Notes under the pieces: generated by a model
Database searches by the model: none
What the model saw: the letters and a program-made list of their open reading frames with translations, nothing else
Told to the model about the DNA's origin: nothing
Translations under genes and position numbers: made by a program
Origin: Bacteroidota bacterium
Lineage (GTDB): Bacteria; Bacteroidota; Bacteroidia; Chitinophagales; Chitinophagaceae
Assembly (NCBI GenBank): GCA_026391435.1
Contig: JAPLEJ010000005.1
Location: 62,001 to 126,000, forward strand
Direction of reading: 5' to 3'
DNA length: 64,000 bases
Shown here: positions 23,427 to 33,955 of the stretch, in pieces
Numbering within the stretch: the first letter of the stretch is position 1
Layout of the letters: every line of letters begins with the position of its first letter

Positions 23427-24302
23427 ATGTTGTATTCAATGACAGGTTACGGAAGAGCAGAATCCATTTTAAAAGATAAAACTTTTTTAGTGGAAGTGAA
23501 ATCCTTGAATGGCAAACAATTTGATGTACGCTTAAATGCCCCTTCCTTATTAAAGCCTTATGAAGTCGAAATAAGAAATAAGCTCAATGAGGAATTATTC
23601 AGAGGAAGTGTAGAATGTTCAATTTCTATTAAATCTAATGGTGCTTCAAAACCAGTGAGTGTCAATAAAGAACTTGCGAAGTCGTATTATCAACCCATTA
23701 TGGAGCTAGCCCAAGAATTGGGTATGGGAACCGAAAATATTTTGAGTACCCTTTTGAAAATGCCTGATGTGGTGTCGTCCACGAACGAGGTATTGACCGA
23801 GGAGGAATGGCAGTTTTTATTTACTTTATTAAAACAAGCCATTGATCATCTAATAAAACATCGCGGGGAAGAAGGTAAATCGATTGAAAAGGATTTATTA
23901 GAAAAAATCATTGCTATTGAAAAGCAACAAGCTGTCGTTGAAATACATGAACCTAATCGCCGTGAAAAAATTAAAGAGGGGATGGTTAAATTATTAGAGC
24001 AGCATGTAGGCGCAGATAAATATGATCATAACAGATTAGAGCAAGAGCTCATTTATTATATTGAAAAAATAGATATCTCCGAAGAGCGTGTTCGTTTAAA
24101 AAATCATTGCGATTATTTTAAGGACATGTTAAAGGAATCCGAACCTTGTAAGGGAAAAAAACTTTCCTTTATATTACAAGAAATAGGTAGAGAGATTAAT
24201 ACCACGGGTTCAAAAGCCAATGACGTGGATATTCAAAAGGCCGTCATTATGATGAAGGATGAGTTAGAGAAAGCAAAAGAGCAAATTTTAAATGTATTGT
24301 AA
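23427..24302 (+). CDS. yicC: YicC family endoribonuclease-like protein
   Basis: MLYSMTGYGRAE start and C-terminal FILQEIGREINTTGSKANDVDIQKAVIMMKDELEKAKEQILNV. Confidence 0.93.
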   Translation: MLYSMTGYGRAESILKDKTFLVEVKSLNGKQFDVRLNAPSLLKPYEVEIRNKLNEELFRGSVECSISIKSNGASKPVSVNKELAKSYYQPIMELAQELGMGTENILSTLLKMPDVVSSTNEVLTEEEWQFLFTLLKQAIDHLIKHRGEEGKSIEKDLLEKIIAIEKQQAVVEIHEPNRREKIKEGMVKLLEQHVGADKYDHNRLEQELIYYIEKIDISEERVRLKNHCDYFKDMLKESEPCKGKKLSFILQEIGREINTTGSKANDVDIQKAVIMMKDELEKAKEQILNVL

Positions 24303-24303
24303 A

Positions 24304-24783
24304 ATGCGGTCGTTCACATCCTACATATTATTTACTGGAATTTTATTGAGTTTGTTGATGTCTAGTTGTGAGCCCATTCAGTTGTATGAGCAAAATACCA
24401 TCTACCCCCAACATGAGTGGTCAAGTAAACAGGTTAATCATTATCAGTTTAACATTACGGATACCAATGCATTGTATAAAATCTTTTTTGTTGTAAGGCA
24501 TCATAATACCTATCGCTATAAAAACATCTGGCTACAAATGGACACACAATCTCCTTCAGATTCAGTTGTTAAGCAAACACTTAATTTGCAATTAGCAGAT
24601 GATCAAAAAGGATGGTTAGGTGTTGGTATGGACGATGTATATGATCAAAGAATTCCTATTAATGCGGTCCCCACTAAGCTTAAGAAGGGGGTGTATCGAT
24701 TTAGTATGCAACATACCATGAGGGAGGATCCACTTTCTGGCATTTTGTCAACAGGCTTGCGTGTCGAAAAAGTCCATTTATGA
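24304..24783 (+). CDS. gldH: gliding motility lipoprotein GldH
   Basis: Lipobox LLMSSC; YEQNTIYPQHEWSSKQVNHYQFNITDTNALYKIFFVVRHHNTYRYKNIWL GldH-like. Start re-assigned from 24292. Confidence 0.8.
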   Translation: MRSFTSYILFTGILLSLLMSSCEPIQLYEQNTIYPQHEWSSKQVNHYQFNITDTNALYKIFFVVRHHNTYRYKNIWLQMDTQSPSDSVVKQTLNLQLADDQKGWLGVGMDDVYDQRIPINAVPTKLKKGVYRFSMQHTMREDPLSGILSTGLRVEKVHL

Positions 24784-25763
24784 AAACAAGATGGTTTAAA
24801 ATAAACAAATTAAAATTTGTCAATTTTATTTACTGGATTTTTTTGACTTATATGATTGCTGCCTTTGTTTGGTGGTATGTGTCACTTGAAAAGCAAAATA
24901 ATGAAATTGCTTTCGTCAAATTTCAATCCATTCGATCAGACGACCCTGCATTAACCGCAAAAGTAAAAAGTATCGAGACGTATGAAGCTCGTAAAACAAA
25001 GCAATACATAGGCGAGGGTATTACTTTTTTATTTTTATTTTTATGGGGGGCCTTGTATGTATATCGATCCTTATTAAAACAATTAAAGTATTCCAATCAG
25101 CAGCAAAATTTTATGATGGCGGTGACGCATGAATTAAAAACGCCTATTGCCATTACCCAATTGAACATTGAAACCTTACTCAAGCGGGACTTAGACGCGA
25201 TACAACAAAAAATGCTGATTGAAAATACTTTAAAAGAAACACACCGACTGGATGCGCTTTGTAACAATATTTTATTAGCCTCTCAATTAGATATGGGTCA
25301 GTATGTGTCAGACATGCAGGTGATGGATTTATCAAGTACACTTCAATCTGTGCTTCATTCCTTTCAAGAACGATTCCCGAATCGAAATTTAATTTTGGAT
25401 ATAGATCCTTCTGTTTTTATACAAGGTGAACCTTTGCTTATTCAATTATTAATTAATAACTTATTAGACAATGCGCATAAATATTCGCCATTGACAAGCA
25501 CTGTTCATATATTACTTAAGACGACATCCCATGAAATTAAATTAATGATTAAAGACAATGGGATAGGGATTCCTGTGGAAGAAAGAGAAAAAATATTTGA
25601 AAAATTTTATCGAATTGGAGATGAGTCTACACGAACCACCAAAGGCACGGGCCTAGGTCTTTATTTATGTAAAAAAATAAGTGCATTTCATCATGCTTCT
25701 CTTAAAGTGGAACCCAATGTACCCAATGGGAGTATTTTTATTTTAAATTTTCCATTAAGATGA
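24780..25763 (+). CDS. sensor histidine kinase
   Basis: Two TM segments, H-box FMMAVTHELKTPIAITQLN, N-box NNLLDNAHKYSP, GTGLGLYLCKK. Confidence 0.93.
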   Translation: MKTRWFKINKLKFVNFIYWIFLTYMIAAFVWWYVSLEKQNNEIAFVKFQSIRSDDPALTAKVKSIETYEARKTKQYIGEGITFLFLFLWGALYVYRSLLKQLKYSNQQQNFMMAVTHELKTPIAITQLNIETLLKRDLDAIQQKMLIENTLKETHRLDALCNNILLASQLDMGQYVSDMQVMDLSSTLQSVLHSFQERFPNRNLILDIDPSVFIQGEPLLIQLLINNLLDNAHKYSPLTSTVHILLKTTSHEIKLMIKDNGIGIPVEEREKIFEKFYRIGDESTRTTKGTGLGLYLCKKISAFHHASLKVEPNVPNGSIFILNFPLR

Positions 25764-26464
25764 GTATTCAGAAACAAACTATTTTAGTAGTGGAAGATGA
25801 AGTCCATTTACACGAAGCGCTCAAATTAAATTTGGAATTAGAAGGCTATGAAGTAAGCTCTGCTTTTGATGGACCCAATGCATTAAACCAAATTCAACAT
25901 GCTCATTTTGATTTAATTATTTTAGATGTGATGTTGCCTGGTATGGATGGCTATACTATTGTTGAATCGGTTCGATTACATCATATCAACACTCCAATAT
26001 TAATTTTAAGTGCAAAAAATACGAGTGCGAATAGGGTGCAAGGATTAAAATTAGGAGCCGATGATTATTTAACCAAACCTTTTAATTTAGAAGAATTATT
26101 ATTACGCGTTTCAAAATTAATTCAAAAATCAGGGACTCCTACCACCACACTTGTTTCCAACGATACTTATTCTTTTTCAGGTCATACTATTTATTTTAAA
26201 TTATTGCAAGCCACCTTAGGTAGCGGAGAAAAAATAAACTTGACTAAAAAAGAAGCAATGTTACTAAAGCTGCTCATTGAAAATAAAAATACCATCATTA
26301 CAAGGGAGCGCATTTTGCAAACAGTATGGGGTTACCAGGTATTTCCCAATACCCGAACAATTGATAATTTTATTCTCAATTTTAGGAAATATTTCGAATC
26401 AGATAGTAAAAATCCCCTCCATTTTATATCGATCCGTGGGATCGGCTATAAATTTCAAGATTAA
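25760..26464 (+). CDS. OmpR/PhoB-family response regulator
   Basis: Receiver domain (LVVEDEVHLHEAL, LIILDVMLPGMDGY, LTKPFNLEELLLR) plus winged-helix C-terminus. Confidence 0.95.
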   Translation: MSIQKQTILVVEDEVHLHEALKLNLELEGYEVSSAFDGPNALNQIQHAHFDLIILDVMLPGMDGYTIVESVRLHHINTPILILSAKNTSANRVQGLKLGADDYLTKPFNLEELLLRVSKLIQKSGTPTTTLVSNDTYSFSGHTIYFKLLQATLGSGEKINLTKKEAMLLKLLIENKNTIITRERILQTVWGYQVFPNTRTIDNFILNFRKYFESDSKNPLHFISIRGIGYKFQD

Positions 26465-26505
26465 TCGATTTTTAAGCAATCTTTAGTCCATTTTGTCGTT
26501 AATTC

Positions 26506-26522
26506 TAGTAGTTAAACTACTA
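26506..26522. repeat. 17-bp perfect dyad TAGTAGTT-A-AACTACTA just upstream of the 26525 start codon
   Basis: 8-bp perfect arms, 1-nt centre; ends 2 nt before ATG. Confidence 0.8.
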
Positions 26523-26524
26523 AC

Positions 26525-27658
26525 ATGTCATTGTCGTCCATAAAAGATTTTGTTGAACCTATTAATGTGGCCCATATTTCAAAAGATGAGGGCTATAGGG
26601 ATACCCAATTAGGCAAACACATCAAGGTAAATGAAGGGACTATTCCGGATATTACGGATGCCGACATTGTCATCATAGGTGCAGGTGAATGCCGTGGGGC
26701 AGGTTTTGCATTAAATGGTCATGCTGCAGCTAATGCCATAAGGACGGCTTTATATGATTTATATTATTGGCATGCGCAGGTGAATGTAGTAGATATTGGA
26801 AATGTGAAAAATGGTCAAAGTATTCAGGATAGTTATGCTGCCTTGAGGACGGTAATTTCAGAGTTGATTGTACAAAATAAAAAAGTGGTCATTATTGGGG
26901 GTGCGCATGATTTAACATTGGCACAATACCATTCTTATACCTCTATTCCTACTTTAGTGAATGCAGTAGTAGTGGATGCTAAAATAGATTTAGACCTTGA
27001 AGCAAGATTGCCCAGGGATCATTTTTTAGAAGAGTTATTTACGGGTTTACCCAATCACTTGAATCATTACAGCCATATTGGTTTTCAAAGTTATTTTATG
27101 CATCCGCATATGTTGGAGACCATTGATAAACTTAGATTTGATTGCTTCCGATTAGGAAAAGTGCGAGAAGGGATTGAGGAAATGGAACCTGTCATTAGAG
27201 ATAGTCACATGATGAGCTTTGATATTAGTGCCATACAAAATGCACAAGCCCCTGCTAATTTAGTAACACCGAATGGATTTAATGGGGAGGAAGCTTGTAC
27301 TTTAATGCAATATGCAGGCATGAGCTGGAAAACAAGTACGATAGGATTATTTGGTTATCAAGCCGAACTAGATGTACACGGTATGACAGCGATTCAAATG
27401 GCACAAATGATTTGGTATATTATGGATGGCGTTCAAAAAGGGAAAAAGGAAGCGCCATTAAGTGATTCGGATAGGTTTAAAGAATTTCATATTGCTTTTT
27501 CAGATATTGAAACTAACTTTTTACAAAGTAAGAGTACGGGCAGATGGTGGATGCAAATGCATAATAATGAATGGGGTCCTTGTAGTTATAAGGATTATTT
27601 AGTAGCTTCCAATAACGAAATTCCAGAAAGATGGCTAAGGGCTTTAGAAAGGGAGTAA
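26525..27658 (+). CDS. arginase/formiminoglutamase-fold (ureohydrolase superfamily) protein with altered metal site
   Basis: 377 aa; GGAHDLTLAQ retained; DAHxD position reads DAKID; SxDxDxxDP position reads SFDISAIQNAQAP. Confidence 0.8.
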   Translation: MSLSSIKDFVEPINVAHISKDEGYRDTQLGKHIKVNEGTIPDITDADIVIIGAGECRGAGFALNGHAAANAIRTALYDLYYWHAQVNVVDIGNVKNGQSIQDSYAALRTVISELIVQNKKVVIIGGAHDLTLAQYHSYTSIPTLVNAVVVDAKIDLDLEARLPRDHFLEELFTGLPNHLNHYSHIGFQSYFMHPHMLETIDKLRFDCFRLGKVREGIEEMEPVIRDSHMMSFDISAIQNAQAPANLVTPNGFNGEEACTLMQYAGMSWKTSTIGLFGYQAELDVHGMTAIQMAQMIWYIMDGVQKGKKEAPLSDSDRFKEFHIAFSDIETNFLQSKSTGRWWMQMHNNEWGPCSYKDYLVASNNEIPERWLRALERE

Positions 27659-28947
27659 TTCATTCATCCCATTTTATTTCAATTTTATTTTGCTGTGTTT
27701 TAAGTGCTTGTAGTATTCAAAAGGCGCAAAAAACATTATTACAATCAGATGCATTAAAGGGAGCGCACATTGGTATTGCTGTATACAATGACACCAAGCA
27801 GCAATGGATAGACCAATATCAAAGTGATCATTACTTTACCCCAGCAAGTAATACAAAAATATTAGCAACTTATGTTGCTTTAAAATATTTAGGAGATTCT
27901 TTGCCAGGTTTTAAGATGGCAGAAAATATGGATACCCTATTTTTAACTCCATTGGGTGATCCTAGTTTCTTACATCCCGATTTTCAATATCAACCCGTGG
28001 TGGATTTGATTAAAAATTCTAAAAAACAAATAGTGATTCAAGTGGAACAATCAATGGACCACTTTGAATTAATGGGGAATGGTTGGGCCTGGAATGATTA
28101 TGCCGAAGATTATCAACCTCAAAGAAGCAGAATGCCCATTTATGGTAATGTGGTTCATTTTTATCAGGCCAATGGAAAGTTAGGGATACAGCCTTTTTAT
28201 TTTTTCAAAGACATGACCGATGTAGCTAGTGGCTATCAAAAAAATTGGACAAGAAAACAAGTTGGAAATATTTTTTATAATACAGCGAAACAAAATACAG
28301 CCCCTTATTTTCAAGTTCCATTTGATGCTTATGCTCAGCCACAACTACCTGTAGCGCTCTTAAGTGATACTTTAAAAAAAGAAATTCATTCAGTAGCCTA
28401 TTCTTCTTTATTGAACAGTAAAATAATCAAAACAGTACCCACCGATTCTTTATTAAAAATAATGATGCGTCGAAGCGACAATTTTTTTGCTGAGCAAGTA
28501 TTATTAATGGCGAGTGAGCAATTATTAGGAAAGATAGATGACGCTGCATTTATTGACACGGTACTTAAAACCGATTTTGCTTCACTACCACAAAAAATGC
28601 GATGGGCAGATGGCAGTGGCTTAAGTAGGTACAATTTAAATACCCCTGAAAACTATATTGCCATTTTAAAACAAATGCAGGATCAATTTGGACAGGCTCG
28701 TGTTGCTAATATATTTGAAACAGGCGGGGTGGGCACACTTTCTTCCTATTATAAAAATTTTCCTGGCGAACTACATGCTAAAACAGGAAGCTTAGGAAAT
28801 CAGATTGCATTGAGTGGATTTATATTTACTCAAAAAAATCAGAAATTATATTTTTCAATATTAGTTTCTAATCACATGAGTCCTACAAGTGCAGCGGTAC
28901 GAAAAGCAGTAGAAGCTTATTTAAGAACGGTTGCGAGTAAAAATTAA
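27631..28947 (+). CDS. dacB: D-alanyl-D-alanine carboxypeptidase/endopeptidase (PBP4-type)
   Basis: SxxK (PASNTK), SDN (RRSDNFF), KTG (HAKTGSLG) motifs; lipobox LSAC. Confidence 0.9.
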   Translation: MAKGFRKGVIHSSHFISILFCCVLSACSIQKAQKTLLQSDALKGAHIGIAVYNDTKQQWIDQYQSDHYFTPASNTKILATYVALKYLGDSLPGFKMAENMDTLFLTPLGDPSFLHPDFQYQPVVDLIKNSKKQIVIQVEQSMDHFELMGNGWAWNDYAEDYQPQRSRMPIYGNVVHFYQANGKLGIQPFYFFKDMTDVASGYQKNWTRKQVGNIFYNTAKQNTAPYFQVPFDAYAQPQLPVALLSDTLKKEIHSVAYSSLLNSKIIKTVPTDSLLKIMMRRSDNFFAEQVLLMASEQLLGKIDDAAFIDTVLKTDFASLPQKMRWADGSGLSRYNLNTPENYIAILKQMQDQFGQARVANIFETGGVGTLSSYYKNFPGELHAKTGSLGNQIALSGFIFTQKNQKLYFSILVSNHMSPTSAAVRKAVEAYLRTVASKN

Positions 28948-32617: not shown

Positions 32618-33955
32618 CTAATTTGATGAAGGTCCGCTATTGGTGCCATTATTAGGCCCATTATTAGGACCGTTATTAGGACGATTCATTGGAGGTCGAC
32701 TAGGTCCATTACTTGGTCCATTATTAGGTCGATTATTGTTCATGGGCCTTCCACTATTATTTCCTTGTTGTTGTCCGCCTTGACGAGGGGGACCTGATGG
32801 ACGATCGTTTGGATTAGGACGACGATCATTATTATTAAATCTTTGTTGGTCTCTGCGGCGACGATCATTTTTCTCCAAACTCTTTAAACTAATTTGACCC
32901 ACCACATCTACAAAATCAGGTTCAACTTCCTTAGGCTTGCCACTGGTTACTTCCACTGCTTGTAATTCCTCAACAGCAATACCTTGTTGGTTTAATGTTT
33001 TTATTTCCTTCACACGCTCAATAGTTAAAGGATAATGTTTTGTGTTATTAGGTAAGGTATACCACATCAAATTTTTGAAAATATCTTTTTTAATCAAAAA
33101 TGCTTGCCCCATGACTGTTTGTAAATTGTCTGCATAATCAGGGAAAGCTTGTAATGCATCTAAGTAGGTATCTAATTCAAAATTCAAACAACATTTAAGT
33201 CGACCGCATTGACCACTTAATTTAGTTTGATTGATTGATAAATTCTGATATCGTGCAGCTGTTGTGTTGACACTTTTAAAATCATGCAACCAAGTACTAC
33301 AACATAGTTCCCTTCCGCAACTGCCAATACCACCCACTTTGGCAGCTTCTTGACGGATGCCTATTTGACGCATCTCCACTTTTACTTTAAATTCGCCTGC
33401 AAAAATTCGGATGAGTTCTCTAAAGTCAATACGATCATCAGCAGTATAAAAGAAAGTTCCTTTTTTTCCATCTGCCTGAATTTCAACCTCGCTTAATTTC
33501 ATGGCTAATTTTAGTTGCCTTGCCGCAGCACGACTCCTAGCTAAAATTGCAGCTTCTCTACTTTTACTTATTTTATAAGCTTCAATATCGCGTTCATTAC
33601 TTGGCCTAAGAATTTTTTTAATTTCAACACTAGATTCTTCAATGCCTCTTTTTTTAAGTTGTAACCTTACTAATTCACCGGTTAAACATATTTCTCCAAG
33701 GTCAAAGCCATTAACTCCTTCGACAGTGACATAGTCACCCTTTTCAAATTGCTGATTACTTAAATTTTTGAAGAATTCCTTTCGACTTCCTTGGTTAAAG
33801 CTTACTTCCACCACTTTGCATTGACTATTGACATCGTCAATCGCTAAGTCACTTAACCAATCGTGCACATTTAAACGGTTACAACCACCTGTGCTACACC
33901 CGCCGTTGCTTTTGCAACCGCCTGGTTTACCAGTTCCACATGATCCACATCCCAT
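32618..33955 (-). CDS. ricT: PSP1 domain (RicT/YaaT-like) protein with Cys-rich N-terminus and Asn/Gly/Pro repeat tail
   Basis: PSP1 core (VKVEMRQIGIRQEAAKVGGIGSCGRELCCSTWL, KLSGQCGRLKCCLNFE); N-term MGCGSCGTGKPGGCKSNGGCSTGGC. Confidence 0.88.
   Translation of the reverse strand: MGCGSCGTGKPGGCKSNGGCSTGGCNRLNVHDWLSDLAIDDVNSQCKVVEVSFNQGSRKEFFKNLSNQQFEKGDYVTVEGVNGFDLGEICLTGELVRLQLKKRGIEESSVEIKKILRPSNERDIEAYKISKSREAAILARSRAAARQLKLAMKLSEVEIQADGKKGTFFYTADDRIDFRELIRIFAGEFKVKVEMRQIGIRQEAAKVGGIGSCGRELCCSTWLHDFKSVNTTAARYQNLSINQTKLSGQCGRLKCCLNFELDTYLDALQAFPDYADNLQTVMGQAFLIKKDIFKNLMWYTLPNNTKHYPLTIERVKEIKTLNQQGIAVEELQAVEVTSGKPKEVEPDFVDVVGQISLKSLEKNDRRRRDQQRFNNNDRRPNPNDRPSGPPRQGGQQQGNNSGRPMNNNRPNNGPSNGPSRPPMNRPNNGPNNGPNNGTNSGPSSN
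32630..32750. repeat. degenerate 12-bp tandem repeat (nnCCATTATTAGG-like) encoding PNNG/PSNG repeats
   Basis: Repeated CCATTATTAGG / CCGTTATTAGG / CCATTACTTGG units in the 3' end of ricT. Confidence 0.7.

Follow-up and report, generated by a model that had tools for sequence, protein, structure and literature searches.

In arginase numbering, the Mn-A ion of the ureohydrolase cluster is bound by H101, D124, D128 and D232, and the Mn-B ion by D124, H126, D232 and D234. In the canonical sequence motifs, the His of GGxH is an Mn-A ligand, and the His of DAHxD and the second Asp of SxDxD are specific to Mn-B. Proteins that have the fold and have given up this chemistry have been described. The beta subunits of metformin hydrolase have a ureohydrolase fold and no active metal centre (PMC11399263; PDB 8ryi and 8snf), and an arginase-like protein of Trypanosoma brucei (Hai et al., 2015) is, in the description given by a paper that cites it (PMC5602898), a metal-free or inactive form of the same fold. 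We analysed a window of 64,000 nucleotides from the 1.9 Mb draft genome (84% complete) of a bacterium related to Sediminibacterium (Chitinophagaceae), in which a gene for a candidate protein of this kind is found. A sequence-only reading of the window had drawn attention to its metal motifs; its class-wide distribution, its C-terminal subdomain and its association with genes of the type 9 secretion system (T9SS) and gliding motility are points beyond that reading.

An arginase-fold protein that has lost both Mn-B-specific ligands

The gene occupies positions 26525..27658 of the forward strand, begins with ATG and encodes an arginase-fold protein of 377 amino acids without the binuclear metal site of ureohydrolases; the opposite strand is closed over 26525-27658, with no open frame there. 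The protein matches the Pfam arginase family (PF00491) with 54.2 bits against a cut-off of 22 (E 1.9e-14). An AlphaFold2 model (mean pLDDT 94.8, pTM 0.94) was compared with the PDB using Foldseek, which returned metformin hydrolase as the top match as well as formimidoylglutamase and agmatinase, with E-values of about 1e-15 to 1e-14 and TM-scores, by target length, of up to 0.82. Sequence and predicted fold thus both place the protein in the arginase/ureohydrolase superfamily. No signal peptide was evident in it.

The sequence-only reading had identified the three metal motifs as GGAHD, DAKID and SFDIS and had concluded that exactly the two ligands specific to Mn-B were replaced, and both statements were borne out. 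GGAHD (residues 125-129; 26897..26911, + strand) corresponds to the canonical GGxH with its Mn-A His. DAKID (residues 151-155; 26975..26989, +) corresponds to DAHxD with Lys153 in place of the Mn-B His, and SFDIS (residues 231-235; 27215..27229, +) corresponds to SxDxD with Ser235 in place of the second Asp. In the Pfam alignment and in a PDB profile these sequences fall on the ureohydrolase metal-ligand motifs. Close relatives from the outgroup have intact motifs in the very alignment columns in which the window protein has its altered ones; misalignment was therefore rejected as an explanation, and no intact DAHxD or SxDxD lies elsewhere in the window protein. Because Lys153 and Ser235 replace both Mn-B ligands, the protein does not have the ligand set of a catalytic binuclear ureohydrolase. 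Gly277 (27353..27355, +) aligns with the canonical Glu of the E(V/I)NP motif, the guanidinium-binding residue in arginase; this position is Glu in 35 of 73 relatives.

The gene is under purifying selection. Within the genus dN/dS is approximately 0.03-0.06, at dS values near saturation, and no stop codons interrupt the frames of the listed relatives, observations that led us to reject a decaying pseudogene.

Alignment and model define a C-terminal subdomain of four strands and two helices (residues 318-377; 27476..27655, +). It is absent from the relatives with intact motifs, and a search of the PDB by sequence found no relative of it. Among the residues that are invariant in the family, F332, W341, W342 and C353 are located in this subdomain and G92, Q188, G251, G265 and G302 precede it. 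The family and the intact-motif relatives largely have R73, Y77, D90, G92 and Q188 in common, and F205, R209, E221, R225, W297 and the tail are mostly specific to the family.

Distribution and gene neighbourhood in Bacteroidia

Of 195 good Bacteroidia genomes, 186 have a homologue, nearly always as a single copy, and these genomes represent 114 of 121 genera. Among relatives of the window's genome the figure is 59 of 61, and all 38 good genomes in this set have the gene. Outside Bacteroidia, matches to the family profile end near profile position 295-319, and the matching proteins that we inspected have no tail and carry the usual ureohydrolase motifs.

In the window, the arginase-fold gene belongs to a run of genes on one strand. 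The run includes gldH, encoding a gliding motility lipoprotein (24292..24783, +; TIGR03511, 114.6 bits against a cut-off of 78.7), followed by a sensor histidine kinase gene that overlaps the end of gldH (24780..25763, +) and an OmpR/PhoB-type response regulator gene (25760..26464, +) that overlaps the end of the kinase gene and stops 60 bp before the arginase-fold gene. A gene for a PBP4/DacB-like D-Ala-D-Ala carboxypeptidase (27631..28947, +; 88.7 bits, below the cut-off of 107.8) shares 28 bp with the 3' end of the arginase-fold gene. The position after gldH, kinase and regulator is found in the window's genus, and the overlapping or closely spaced ends suggest that in this genus the genes from gldH to the PBP4/DacB-like gene (24292-28947) constitute a single operon. 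As had been stated from the sequence alone, neither hut nor arg genes adjoin the run. Elsewhere in the window, positions 32618-33955 (-) encode a protein whose N-terminus is rich in Cys (MGCGSCGTGKPGGCKSNGGCSTGGC) and which has a long tail rich in Asn, Pro and Gly.

To describe the neighbourhood across the class, we used 83 diverse loci with their flanks; the families of representatives were confirmed by curated models, and topA, murF and miaB were assigned from their sequences. Either porP or gldK is located directly downstream on the same strand in 28 of the 83 loci, mostly followed by gldL and gldM and often by gldN. The gene directly upstream is topA in 27 loci, and 22 loci have both topA and porP. 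Six further loci, all from the window's order, have a convergent murF-gldK-porP arrangement downstream without topA. In another order, sampled with one genome per family, 33 of the 56 carriers encode gldM on the same strand as the gene, 3.2-4.6 kb downstream of it. This linkage to T9SS and gliding genes across many families is the main clue to function. A possible gene fusion in locus L158 was rejected, the long open frame being upstream read-through in high-GC DNA.

Presence of the gene is accompanied by GldM in 187 of 188 genomes of the class sample and in 55 of 56 of the order sample; in the sole exception of the class (G112), the gene lies at the edge of a contig. The reverse does not hold, as the gene is not present wherever T9SS is. 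It is missing from 5 of 192 GldM-bearing genomes in the class sample and from 19 of 74 in one order, and the latter number indicates that it cannot be an essential part of T9SS.

The same loci could be explained by a role linked to topA (DNA topoisomerase I), or by some other housekeeping role, with the proximity to gld genes reflecting ancestral gene order only. This explanation opposes only the link to T9SS; a repurposed fold is common to both. At the 27 loci with topA directly upstream, the intergenic distance is short on the topA side (median 13 to 16 bp, and 20 bp or less in 16 of the 27) and long on the side of the next gene (median 132 bp), so that the family gene may share its transcript with topA and not with the gld genes. 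The T9SS-bearing genomes that lack the gene also fit a housekeeping role. However, topA without porP or gldK was seen beside the gene once, whereas porP or gldK was near without topA in several loci. In addition, genomes without GldM usually lack the gene: each of two samples contained five such genomes, and four of the five lacked it (p = 1e-5 and 0.02 in Fisher tests that ignore relatedness; in the class sample, three of the joint absences come from a single family). We regard a topA-linked or housekeeping role as possible but somewhat unlikely.

Variation of the metal site and relation to other ureohydrolases

Metal-site residues were counted in an alignment of 73 diverse family sequences. 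Loss of the Mn-B ligands is common to the whole Bacteroidia family, which puts it well outside what chance would produce: the second Asp of SxDxD is present in none of the 73 sequences and the His of DAHxD in three. The sequence-only reading had suggested that the ammonium group of a Lys could occupy the Mn-B position, and a cationic residue is indeed frequent in place of this His, with Arg in 22 and Lys in 19 members at position 153. Position 235 is Ser in 32, Asn in 12 and other residues in the remainder. The Mn-A site is more variable. Position 128, that of the Mn-A His, is Gln in 37 sequences, His in 22 and Asn in 5; Asp151 is found in 66, Asp155 in 59 and Asp233 in 65. All four Mn-A ligands occur together in 22 members and none of them in three. 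The claim that all Mn-A ligands are present therefore stands for the window protein and its lineage and fails for the family, and the proposed survey of phylogenetic spread gave a divided answer, the Mn-B loss being class-wide and the Mn-A set variable among the 73 relatives.

Two or fewer Mn-A ligands were counted in 16 of the 73 members, and these keep 21-24 of 24 signature residues, like the rest; the mean is 22.7 in sequences with no Mn-A ligand and 23.4 in those with four. The 24 signature columns were chosen from the same alignment, and the informative part of this comparison is that ligand loss does not loosen the signature. Ranked by conservation among the 377 columns, position 128 is 158th, position 235 is 222nd and position 153 is 287th. 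Because ligands are lost without loss of the signature, an intact Mn-A site is a trait of some lineages and not what the family conserves. The losses argue against a mononuclear Mn-A enzyme as the conserved state of the family, which had been suggested as one option for the window protein, and they argue that the conserved function would lie elsewhere than at the metal site. Asp151 and Asp233, retained in about 90% of members, may mark a residual metal or ligand site. In some very divergent members (L209, L210, L211 and L125) the tail signature is mostly kept and the ligand motifs are gone.

If the protein were nevertheless a mononuclear metalloenzyme, a single metal would be bound in a reduced Mn-A site composed of Asp151, Asp155, Asp233 and His, Gln or Asn128, with Lys or Arg153 substituting for the second metal, and the reaction would be a C-N hydrolysis or a lyase reaction. 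The retention of the three Asp residues, the presence of Arg or Lys at position 153 in 41 of 73 members and the complete Mn-A set of the window protein are consistent with such an enzyme, as are the polar and nearly invariant residues R73, D90, Q188, R209, E221, R225 and D357. Moreover, Asn can replace the GGxH His in formiminoglutamases of known structure, one PDB entry being an N114H variant, and Gln or Asn at position 128 alone thus does not forbid a metal. In contrast, the members with zero to two of the four ligands retain both the gene and its signature, and the His128 column has only a middling rank in conservation. We consider a mononuclear enzyme improbable.

We give a smaller chance still to the possibility that the protein is an inactive subunit paired with a catalytic ureohydrolase, as beta is with alpha in metformin hydrolase. 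The top structural match is that enzyme, a heterohexamer with inactive beta subunits (PMC11399263), and most Bacteroidia, including the window's genome, have further canonical PF00491 proteins. However, the family protein is the sole PF00491 match in G158 (a 100% complete genome) and in G101 (95%), which weakens the case for an obligate partner, and no recurrent catalytic paralog was seen as a neighbour in the tabulated contexts. The one further PF00491 protein of the window's genome is encoded outside the window, about 66 kb upstream on the same contig (L001:1462-2421; G000:C40:22348-23238), and its motifs (SGDHS, DAHAD and SFDVD) look canonical.

In a last explanation, the protein would be an ordinary HutG, a formimidoylglutamase acting in histidine degradation, that has diverged in sequence. 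We rejected this identity and regard it as hardly credible. In its favour are the best curated family match (TIGR01227) and a fold that matches HutG structures, but the score is 62.8 bits against a cut-off of 229.15, the metal site is lost, hutU had no match in the window's genome (84% complete) or in G091, G070, G098, G132 and G142, all of which carry the gene, and several Bacteroidia genomes encode a separate intact HutG-like protein in addition to the family protein, the one in G143 (DAHFD/SVDLD) adjoining hutU.

In a tree of arginase domains, which was obtained by a short search and contains some long branches, the family occupies one side of a branch with an SH-aLRT value of 95. The other side holds the intact-motif relatives and the HutG paralogs of Bacteroidia, both tail-less. 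The closest relatives outside the class (L194:3718-4755, - strand, and L195:3903-4985, - strand) are tail-less and HutG-like with nearly intact metal motifs, DTHLN/SFDLD and DTHLD/SFDLD, respectively, and these proteins may approximate the ancestor.

Proposed role and comparison with described systems

We favour a repurposed arginase fold that does not act as a ureohydrolase and is most plausibly linked to T9SS and gliding, a reading to which we assign a probability of roughly 0.6. Taken alone, the repurposing to a non-ureohydrolase is likely, and the link to T9SS, the weaker half, is tentative. A formimidoylglutamase- or agmatinase-type ureohydrolase would have been copied or captured early in Bacteroidia, and would then have lost its binuclear metal cluster and gained the C-terminal beta-subdomain. 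Vertical inheritance would have maintained it in almost all Bacteroidia, in a role other than that of a ureohydrolase. A network of side chains and salt bridges, in which Arg or Lys153 would interact with Asp151, Asp155 and Asp233, may fill the old pocket instead of metals. The protein would probably act in the cytoplasm, given that no signal peptide is evident, as a binding or regulatory partner, with the C-terminal subdomain and the region of R209, E221 and R225 as the putative binding surface. Its partner could be a T9SS or gliding component accessible on the cytoplasmic side, for example the portion of GldL that lies in the cytoplasm. The more specific proposal that this nearly universal arginase-fold pseudoenzyme is an as yet unrecognised accessory or regulator of T9SS and gliding in the cytoplasm, acting via its lineage-specific C-terminal subdomain, is doubtful at present.

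Almost the whole class retains this protein as a single copy, with a tail that is invariant and an active site that has been taken apart. It almost certainly does something useful, and current names such as formimidoylglutamase or arginase family protein obscure this. Should it prove to be part of the T9SS or gliding apparatus, a much-studied machine would gain a cytoplasmic component that had been missing; otherwise, the family remains a clear example from nature of an enzyme fold put to new use without its metal cluster. The literature searched held no interaction, expression or phenotype data on the family, and in open-access literature we found no paper on the family or on its gene beside gldK. 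As far as these searches reach, no class-wide bacterial family that combines a metal-less ureohydrolase fold with an added subdomain and a location beside secretion genes has been described.

Among known systems, the T9SS core operon porP-gldK-gldL-gldM-gldN (PorP and PorK/L/M/N) often has the family gene as its immediate upstream neighbour, but the family protein is not homologous to any named component and is absent from many T9SS genomes of one order. HutG (TIGR01227; PDB 3m1r, 4mxr and 1xfk) has the same fold, and its motifs align with those of the family column by column; the family differs in lacking the Mn-B ligands and often the Mn-A His, in its extra C-terminal subdomain and in not being tied to hut genes. 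The metformin hydrolase beta subunit, which arose recently, is encoded in one operon with its active alpha partner, whereas the family described here spans the class and in some genomes supplies the sole PF00491 protein. Compared with the T. brucei arginase-like protein as the citing paper describes it, which is a single eukaryotic protein, the proteins studied here form a bacterial family that extends across a class, has an extra subdomain and has secretion and gliding genes as its gene context.
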